In this document: piece by piece, positions 25,847 through 27,982 of the stretch
Position numbering within the stretch: the first letter of the stretch is position 1
Layout of the letters: every line of letters begins with the position of its first letter
Program-made: the position numbers and the translations under genes
Notes under the pieces: generated by a model
The model's database searches: none
The model's input: the letters and a program-made list of their open reading frames with translations, nothing else
Told to the model about the DNA's origin: nothing
Assembly: GCA_017543445.1 (NCBI GenBank)
Contig: JAFYGB010000044.1
Location: 1-36,585, forward strand
DNA length: 36,585 nt
Direction of reading: 5' to 3'
Origin: Lachnospiraceae bacterium
GTDB taxonomy: Bacteria > Bacillota > Clostridia > Lachnospirales > Lachnospiraceae

Positions 25847-27982
25847 ATGAAGATAATTAAATATTCGGTCGGCACCGTGGTGATGATCTTTCTTCTGATC
25901 GCGCTGCTGATCGGGATCATCGAATGTACGATCTTCGGCGGGCGGAGCTTCTATCGCTACCAGTATGAGAAGCTGGAAGTGACGAAGGATGTCCAGATGG
26001 AGATCGACGACCTGATGGAGGTCACGGACGAGATGCTGCTCTACCTGCAGGGTAAGCGGGAGGATCTGGTCGTTGTGACGACCATAGCGGGTCAGGAACG
26101 CGAGTTTTTCAATACGCGTGAGAAATTGCACATGGAGGACGTAAAAGGCTTAAATCTGGCCTCTGTGCGCGTCGGATGGGTATGCCTGCTCCTGTTCTTC
26201 GTTTTCGGCGTACCGTTCACTCTGTGGATGGTGCACGATTACCGAAAAGCGGACGCGGACGCTAAGAAGGCGACGCTTGCAGCGCACCTGCTCAAGATCT
26301 ACCGACGGACGTTCATCTTTGCGATTCTGCTTTTGCTTCTGGTCGTGGGCATCGGCGCGATGATCGTTGCGTCCGATTTCACGCACTACTGGACCCTGTT
26401 CCACGAGATCGTCTTTACGAACGATCTGTGGCTGTTGGATCCGAATACCGATCTTTTGATCAATATCGTTCCGGAGGACTTCTTTATCGCGCTGGTGGCG
26501 CGCTGCGCCATCCGCTATGCCATCGCATTGGCCGTTTTAGCGGCTCTGATCATCGGCGGGTATTTCCTCTTCCGTAAGGGAACTAAAAAAGCTTCACAGG
26601 CCGTAGCCGTGCTGTTGGCGATCGCTCTGGCTATGACCCTGCCGGCGACAGTTTACGCCGGGGAGAATGATGCATCCTACCGCGAGGCGCAGGAGATCCT
26701 AGAGAAGATCCCGACGAGTGCTCCGTGGCCGGAGGCACCGGAACTTACGTCCCACAGCGCCATCCTCATCGAGGAAAACACGGGAAATATCCTGCTTGCG
26801 AAGAATGCTCTGGATGCGCAGGAACCGGCCGATCTGAATAAACTGATGACGGCCTACCTGACATTGACCAGGGCAGGCGACACGGCGCGCACGGATATCG
26901 TAACGTATCCGCAGAGCGTGATCTACAGCGTGCAGAAGGGCGACACCCACATCGGTCTGAAGATCAATGAAGTATTGACCGTATACGACAGTTTGTGCGG
27001 CCTGCTGCTTCCGTCGGCGGACGACTGCGCCGCAGGACTGGCACACTTTGTAAACGCGAAAAACGAAGATTTCGTATCCGCGATGAACATGTCGGCGATG
27101 CTGATGAACTTCGCGAATACGCACTATAAAAAGGCCGGCGGGCGGCCGGTGGAGGGGCAGTACAGCTGCGCCTACGATGTCGCACGCTTGTATGAGGAGC
27201 TGCTGACGTACCCGATCTTCGTCGAGATCAGCCGCAAGACGACGTACACCATCGAGCCGACGAACATCACGCAGGAAAAGCGTCCCATGAAGAATAAGCA
27301 TCGCATGCTGTTTAAGGACGACAAATACTACGATACCCGCGTGGTCTGCGGTAAGAACGGCCGTGGAGACGGCACGGATAACAGCCTGGTCACCTTCGCA
27401 CGGTCGGGAGACATTTCCCTCGTGTGCGTGGTGATGGGAGCGGACGCAGAAGGCCAGTACGCGGACACAAAGAAACTGCTGGATTACGGTTTCAACGAGT
27501 TCGAAAATGTAAACATTTCGGCCAATGATTCCCGGTTCTACCAGAGCTCGGGCGATGCGGGCATATTGACCGCGGGAAGCCAGCTCAGTTTCTACCGTTT
27601 TGATGCAAAGGCGTCGCTGTTGCTGCCGAAGAACACTTCGATCAATGACCTCACGACGACGGTCATCCGCAGCATGGACTCGTCGTTCAGTATGATCCGC
27701 TACTACATCGGGGATTATTATCTCGGTGAGGCGCAGATTCTCGAAGCTACGCAGAAACTGGCGGATGTGTCGAGTCCGCTGTTTAAGGAGAACGGCGGAA
27801 TGCTTCCGTATAAGAGCCTGCCGCCCATGGAGAAGCCGGGCGAGGGGCTGCCGTGGTACCTACTGCCGGCGATCGCAGCGGGTGTACTGCTGATCATCAT
27901 TTTCATATGCGGATACAACAGTAAGGCGAATAAGCGCCGGCGGCGTCACCGTCGGACGAAGATCGTCAAAAACATGATGTGA
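25847..27982 (+). CDS. DUF1461 membrane domain fused to a catalytically degenerate S11 D,D-carboxypeptidase fold
   Basis: Residues 1-240 match the TIGR01906/DUF1461 family: FYRYQYEKLEV, VTDEMLLYLQGKREDL, EREFFNTREKLHMEDVKGL, FHEIVFTNDLWLLDPNTDLL, with four membrane helices. Residues 244-271 look like a retained secretion signal (KKASQAVAVLLAIALAMTLP, then ATVYA). Residues 300-535 follow the D-Ala-D-Ala carboxypeptidase fold (SHSAILIEENTGNILLAKNA, THIGLKINEVLTVYD, LLDYGFNEF), but its motifs are altered: SxxK is D329-L-N-K332, SxN is S390-A-D392, KTG is K503-N-G505. A further helix and a basic tail end the protein. It is probably a non-catalytic peptidoglycan-binding or regulatory protein. Confidence 0.88.
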   Translation: MKIIKYSVGTVVMIFLLIALLIGIIECTIFGGRSFYRYQYEKLEVTKDVQMEIDDLMEVTDEMLLYLQGKREDLVVVTTIAGQEREFFNTREKLHMEDVKGLNLASVRVGWVCLLLFFVFGVPFTLWMVHDYRKADADAKKATLAAHLLKIYRRTFIFAILLLLLVVGIGAMIVASDFTHYWTLFHEIVFTNDLWLLDPNTDLLINIVPEDFFIALVARCAIRYAIALAVLAALIIGGYFLFRKGTKKASQAVAVLLAIALAMTLPATVYAGENDASYREAQEILEKIPTSAPWPEAPELTSHSAILIEENTGNILLAKNALDAQEPADLNKLMTAYLTLTRAGDTARTDIVTYPQSVIYSVQKGDTHIGLKINEVLTVYDSLCGLLLPSADDCAAGLAHFVNAKNEDFVSAMNMSAMLMNFANTHYKKAGGRPVEGQYSCAYDVARLYEELLTYPIFVEISRKTTYTIEPTNITQEKRPMKNKHRMLFKDDKYYDTRVVCGKNGRGDGTDNSLVTFARSGDISLVCVVMGADAEGQYADTKKLLDYGFNEFENVNISANDSRFYQSSGDAGILTAGSQLSFYRFDAKASLLLPKNTSINDLTTTVIRSMDSSFSMIRYYIGDYYLGEAQILEATQKLADVSSPLFKENGGMLPYKSLPPMEKPGEGLPWYLLPAIAAGVLLIIIFICGYNSKANKRRRRHRRTKIVKNMM

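Follow-up and report, generated by a model that had tools for sequence, protein, structure and literature searches.

The protein described here joins relatives of two known kinds of enzymes. The first is the lipoprotein intramolecular transacylase Lit of Bacillus cereus (PDB 7b0o), which according to PMC8275575 has four helices, with both ends inside and the active site outside, and contains the catalytic residues His85 and His153 as well as the highly conserved residues V89, F149, F157, and W162. The second is the group of S11 or PBP5-type DD-peptidases, exemplified by PBP5 of E. coli and DacB of B. subtilis. The analysed stretch of DNA, here called the window, is 36,585 nucleotides long and contains a single open reading frame of 711 codons in which a Lit domain and an S11 domain are joined (Table 1). 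The protein belongs to the same Pfam family as B. cereus Lit and shares its four helices, its His dyad, and most of the residues described for its pocket, but its Lit half belongs to a divergent branch, is joined to an S11 domain, and contains a tryptophan (Trp182) at the position of the active-site aromatic residue F149. Similarly, it resembles PBP5 and DacB in sequence family, fold, export signal, and C-terminal membrane anchor, but lacks the catalytic serine, the asparagine of motif 2, and the threonine of motif 3, and no acyl-enzyme is expected to form. The explanation that we favour, and consider reasonably probable, is that the C-terminal half is a conserved pseudo-carboxypeptidase that derives from an ancestral lit-dacA fusion and acts by binding.

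Table 1. Features of the fusion gene, with positions in the window.
Feature	Position	Strand	Description
Whole fusion ORF	25847..27982	+	711 aa: Lit domain, internal signal-peptide-like segment, pseudo-S11 domain, C-terminal TM, basic tail
Lit domain (PF07314), residues 11-213	25877..26485	+	Pfam profile, hydropathy
His95, equivalent of catalytic His85 of B. cereus Lit	26129..26131	+	
His186, equivalent of catalytic His153 of B. cereus Lit	26402..26404	+	
Internal signal-peptide-like segment, residues 246-271	26582..26659	+	Possible signal peptidase I site after Ala271 (VYA/GEN); putative cleavage
Peptidase_S11 (DacA/PBP5-type) domain, residues 296-533	26732..27445	+	
Motif 1, DLNK (329-332)	26831..26842	+	Replaces SxxK; Lys retained
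Motif 2, SAD (390-392)	27014..27022	+	Replaces SxN; Ser retained
Motif 3, KNG (503-505)	27353..27361	+	Replaces KTG; Lys and Gly retained
C-terminal TM (671-689) and arginine-rich tail	27857..27979	+	Hydropathy

The matches to both domains were well above the Pfam cut-offs, with 140.4 bits for Lit (cut-off 24) and 119.9 bits for Peptidase_S11 (PF00768; curated cut-off 27.6), in agreement with the original prediction that a DUF1461 domain and a D,D-carboxypeptidase fold share one reading frame. The hydropathy profile has peaks at residues 11-29, 111-129, 156-174, 204-222 (weak), 224-242, 252-270, and 671-689. The fourth Lit helix is located at residues 224-242, just past the end of the match to the Pfam profile, while the peak at 252-270 resembles a signal peptide, as had also been predicted for the seam between the domains, and is followed by the possible cleavage site. 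The charges around the peaks agree with the Lit topology except at the first helix, which is ambiguous, with two positive charges before it and three after. The S11 half is still recognised as a DD-peptidase or S11 fold, and the predicted structure model for it is of low confidence. A scan for promoters and terminators around the fusion gene yielded no signal stronger than expected by chance. In the window, the fusion gene is preceded by an aminotransferase class IV gene and followed by a methyltransferase gene and a thioredoxin gene.

In the Lit half, the catalytic dyad is retained, and the residues V89, F157, N159, and W162 of B. cereus Lit correspond to V99, F190, N192, and W195. Both histidines are also invariant in the eight fused or adjacent lit-dacA loci of other genera that were aligned. 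The Lit half scored 94.2 bits on TIGR01906, above the cut-off of 74.8, and 45.9 bits on the NCBIfam equivalog model for Lit (NF051877), below the cut-off of 400. A stand-alone Lit from the same family (L057) scored 172 bits on TIGR01906 and 181.1 bits on NF051877, the latter also below 400. By eye, this protein is closer to B. cereus Lit than is the Lit half of the fusion. In a phylogeny in which the 76 unlinked Lit loci were represented by 25 drawn at random, all DacA-linked Lits were placed in one branch of 46 rows along with 13 of the stand-alone Lits, and the other 12 stand-alone Lits, including L057, were placed in a distant second branch. Its scores and its placement both mark the Lit half as divergent within the family. 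Lit activity is not assured, because the profile scores are divergent and the F149 position contains a tryptophan, but a Lit-type reaction by the N-terminal half is likely. Lgt and LspA are both encoded in the genome.

To place the fusion in a broader context, we searched for Lit with a profile and identified it in at least 164 of 397 genomes of the family. From part of these genomes we fetched loci; the set examined consisted of 103 Lit loci from outside the genus, each followed by 700 bases or more, with 101 of them from the family and two from the order (L092 and L093, both without S11); the linked and examined loci are numbered L086-L091, L098, and L120-L199. In 22 of these loci an S11 gene of the same orientation immediately follows lit, and in another six it is joined to lit in one reading frame, while no S11 gene was found in 75. 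Another 13 loci with a Pfam match to Lit, which scored below 60 bits on a custom Lit profile and had no S11 match above 80 bits, were kept outside the 103, and with these added the linked count is 28 of 116. The locus in genome G004 (L099) and L160, which was too short downstream, were also kept outside, and L080 and L085 were counted once, as L120 and L121. The genomes contain a handful of S11 genes each, and as a rough estimate the frequency of lit-S11 adjacency expected by chance would be far below 1%. With 22 adjacent and six fused loci outside the genus, the claim that the two families are normally encoded apart is not borne out in its original form, and the idea of a fusion unique to the genus was ruled out by at least six further fusions in other genera. 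The order of Lit, signal peptide, and S11 is the same in the genus and in the 28 fusions and pairs of the other genera, which include a separate lit, dacA pair in genome G024. Genes for a V-type ATPase are located directly upstream of lit-dacA in G294 (L091; Pfam ATP-synt_D) and, by eye, in G024 (L025).

All eleven fused proteins contain a hydrophobic stretch between the domains that ends in a site resembling that of signal peptidase, defined as a small or aliphatic residue, any residue, and Ala. The sites were judged by this simple custom rule (eight proteins) and by eye (three proteins), rather than by a trained predictor. The sites are VYA, VYA, IYA, ASA, and VSA in the genus, and ALA, AYA, VKA, AFA, ALA, and TYA in the other fusions. 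The best site according to the rule was located at the seam in four of the five genus proteins and in four of the six other fusions; for L088, L091, and L004 the rule chose another site, and the seam site was identified by eye (VKA, TYA, and IYA, respectively). The seam site in L088 and L089 is located some tens of residues ahead of the S11 domain. The 22 separate DacA genes have similar sites in their own signal peptides. Since the site has been retained through several fused lineages, signal peptidase probably still recognises the seam, and signal peptidase I may cut the two halves apart there. The tethering of the pseudoenzyme to a membrane domain, as stated in the original prediction, is uncertain because the seam keeps such a site.

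It may even be that the fusion serves as a polyprotein only, in which the fusion would have no function of its own: signal peptidase would free Lit from an independent pseudo-DacA, and the shared frame would do no more than fix their ratio at 1:1. We give this reading a chance slightly above even; it concerns the tethering only, is compatible with a pseudo-carboxypeptidase that acts by binding, and its probability overlaps with the one given to that explanation. It is consistent with the retention of the seam site although the segment evolves fast (dN/dS 0.20-0.74 for the nine of ten pairs with a value), with the presence of lit and dacA as adjacent genes in other genera, and with at least five changes between the fused and the separate state on both trees, as parsimony yielded five changes on the S11 tree, where fused rows were compared with adjacent rows, and five on the Lit tree. 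The gene in genome G001 also points in this direction, as it is a mosaic with a break near the seam: its Lit half and upstream DNA resemble those of G003 and G005, while its S11 half resembles those of G000 and G002, with the switch located at about 26600-26700 in the window, close to the internal signal peptide (L094 compared with L002 and L095-L097). This mosaic may be a chimeric assembly. However, a segment of this kind can also remain as an uncut transmembrane helix.

The fusion itself is not unusual, and what sets the genus apart is the genus-wide apparent loss of the active site in the S11 half. The fusion gene is present in all six genus genomes examined, that is, five genomes and that of the window. 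Motif 1 is PADLNK in the five copies that reach it, and motifs 2 and 3 are SADD and KNG in all six; the contig in G004 starts inside the S11 domain, past motif 1, which makes this motif unreadable in that row (L007). The replacement of SxxK, SxN, and KTG by DLNK, SAD, and KNG, as originally noted for the window, was thus confirmed for the genus, with Asp329 conserved in five of five copies and Asp392 and Asn504 in six of six. A sequence or assembly error is very unlikely as the cause, since the assemblies that cover the motifs all show the same residues there. The S11 alignment contained 57 rows, of which the 51 from outside the genus have SxxK without exception, SxN in all but one (SAG in L008), and KTG in all but one (KNG in L016). 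At 56 positions the same residue is conserved in at least 90% of these 51 rows. The genus, represented by the majority of five rows, keeps 36 of them, including P327, A328, K332, S390, D444, G502, K503, and G505, and alters 20, including S329D, T331N, N392D, H438Q, T504N, and T507G/A. The acidic residues that replace the serine of motif 1 and the asparagine of motif 2 are placed near the two retained lysines, which suggests an internally salt-bridged and closed site.

By contrast, the 28 lit-linked S11 domains outside the genus all contain canonical SxxK and KTG motifs together with SAN or SGN, and no dead S11 domain was found among them. Fused homologues with canonical motifs, which count against the original prediction as a general statement, do exist as the six fusions of other genera, but not within the genus, where the prediction stands. 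Five distant S11 proteins from MAGs of candidate phyla (L051-L055) lack the asparagine of motif 2 while SxxK and KTG are retained, and motif 2 alone is therefore not diagnostic.

The selective constraints on the two halves were estimated as dN/dS by NG86, with values that are rough where dS is above 1. The ratio was 0.044-0.123 for the S11 half (residues 275-545; 15 pairs) and 0.089-0.293 for the Lit half (residues 1-245; 10 pairs), where the range was broadened by two allele types within the genus, and the S11 half had the lower value in all ten shared pairs. For comparison, the canonical DacA of the same genomes yielded 0.064-0.143 (10 pairs, whole ORFs). The earlier suggestion of a conserved pseudoenzyme is thus in line with both the genus-wide motif loss and the purifying selection on the S11 half. 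The Lit and S11 phylogenies, both midpoint-rooted, showed that the nearest fusion is the canonical one in G294 (L091), which joins the genus with a support of 100/98 on the Lit tree and with a weaker support of 90/89 on the S11 tree, where a long-branch warning applies to exactly that grouping. The stem branch of the genus has 2.78 changes per column in the S11 half versus 0.76 in the Lit half and is followed by short branches, and past this stem the S11 half is the more conserved of the two. Because the nearest fusion is canonical, catalysis was probably lost after the fusion, along the long stem branch, whereupon the sequence would have been frozen. A burst followed by strong constraint suggests a functional change rather than decay.

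One such change could be a new enzymatic activity, in which the reworked pocket (Asp329, Lys332, Ser390, Asp392, Lys503, and Asn504) catalyses another reaction, in which Asp329 or Ser390 might serve as the nucleophile or a metal might be bound. None of the pocket residues varies among the genus copies that can be read, and the S11 domain is strongly constrained, as an active site would be. However, several conserved polar positions near the motifs have been altered as well (H438Q and T507G/A), the structure model is of too low confidence to reveal a new site, and no precedent was found in the literature searched, which in our view makes this alternative improbable. We think it very unlikely that carboxypeptidase or penicillin-binding activity persists with the help of a different serine: although both motif lysines and Ser390 are retained, the nucleophile has been changed from Ser to Asp in every readable genus copy, and SxN and KTG are altered too. 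Least credible of all is a decaying relic, retained only for the sake of a useful Lit half, as might be suggested by the lost active site and the long stem branch, since decay is ruled out by the dN/dS values and the five complete genus copies contain no stops or frameshifts.

Returning to the pseudo-carboxypeptidase that acts by binding, we propose that a lit-dacA pair present in an ancestor became a single reading frame and that the DacA half then lost catalysis in the genus, where it persisted as a pseudo-carboxypeptidase. In the membrane, the product would probably adopt the four-helix arrangement of Lit, with the catalytic histidines outside, while the internal signal peptide would carry the S11 domain across the membrane, where the C-terminal transmembrane segment would anchor it. 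A cut by signal peptidase I may occur behind Ala271, in which case the halves would become separate proteins in equal amounts. Most likely, the Lit half would still move an acyl chain, with lipoproteins or a related lipid as the substrate. The pseudo-DacA half would form no acyl-enzyme and may instead bind peptides of the wall or another protein, for example the DacA that is still active. A role as sensor or scaffold, as suggested in the original prediction, would be a fair reading for the dead half.

The other S11 proteins of the genus showed a similar pattern. Five of the six genus genomes contain three S11 genes, while G004 contains two. One of these has the canonical motifs PASITK, SANE, and KTG in the five genomes where it was found. 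VanY was ruled out as an alternative wall carboxypeptidase of the genus, since no match to the VanY family was found in the six genomes. The remaining S11 gene encodes a second pseudo-S11, a lipoprotein of about 350 amino acids with a lipobox identified by eye (L100, G000:C26:118475-119524; also L101-L105), in which the motifs are PAGN[FY]TK, CAND, and GIC in all six genomes. Like the fusion, it lacks SxxK and KTG throughout the genus, but it is a separate gene and its motifs have been altered differently. The dN/dS ratio for this lipoprotein was 0.056-0.179 (11 of 15 pairs with a value). Two of the three DacA-type proteins in the genus are thus, as far as motifs can tell, without catalysis, and both have been kept.

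The gene for the lipoprotein adjoins a gene of the RodA/FtsW type and a gene with an MGS domain. By eye, the same gene order is present in other genera (L106-L109), where the S11 protein has canonical motifs; the RodA/FtsW, MGS, and S11 domains were confirmed with Pfam in L106. Only one of the 14 homologues of the lipoprotein outside the genus (L106-L119) is dead. This protein (L119, G033:C4:51981-52817), from a different genus, is S11-like with AGRLAQ, SAED, and KMN, and contains no canonical motifs. A tentative and rather doubtful extension is that the two pseudoenzymes, which are encoded at separate loci and of which one is co-produced with a Lit-type acyltransferase and the other is a lipoprotein, jointly act at the surface without catalysis, sensing or gating how the remaining DacA trims the wall and tying this trimming to lipoprotein processing.

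Searches of open-licence papers identified no description of a conserved, catalytically dead S11 carboxypeptidase, nor of a Lit-DacA fusion or any other coupling of Lit to a wall carboxypeptidase, and a search for internal signal peptides in bacterial fusions gave nothing relevant. Inactive serine-protease homologues in general are treated in passages of PMC2605481, passages of a paper on the lipocone superfamily (PMC12419801) contain nothing on Lit, and a term search in PMC12345273 gave no match. The recurrent pairing of lit and dacA suggests that a connection between the acyl chemistry of lipoproteins and the trimming of the wall has been overlooked. Furthermore, an active site that has been lost in a domain that has been preserved suggests that the dead half now serves a new purpose at the cell surface other than cutting. 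The dead version represents a natural separation-of-function mutant and could reveal duties of DacA-type proteins that survive without catalysis. The sources of the genus genomes, recorded for three of them, are water-buffalo rumen (two) and omasum (one).
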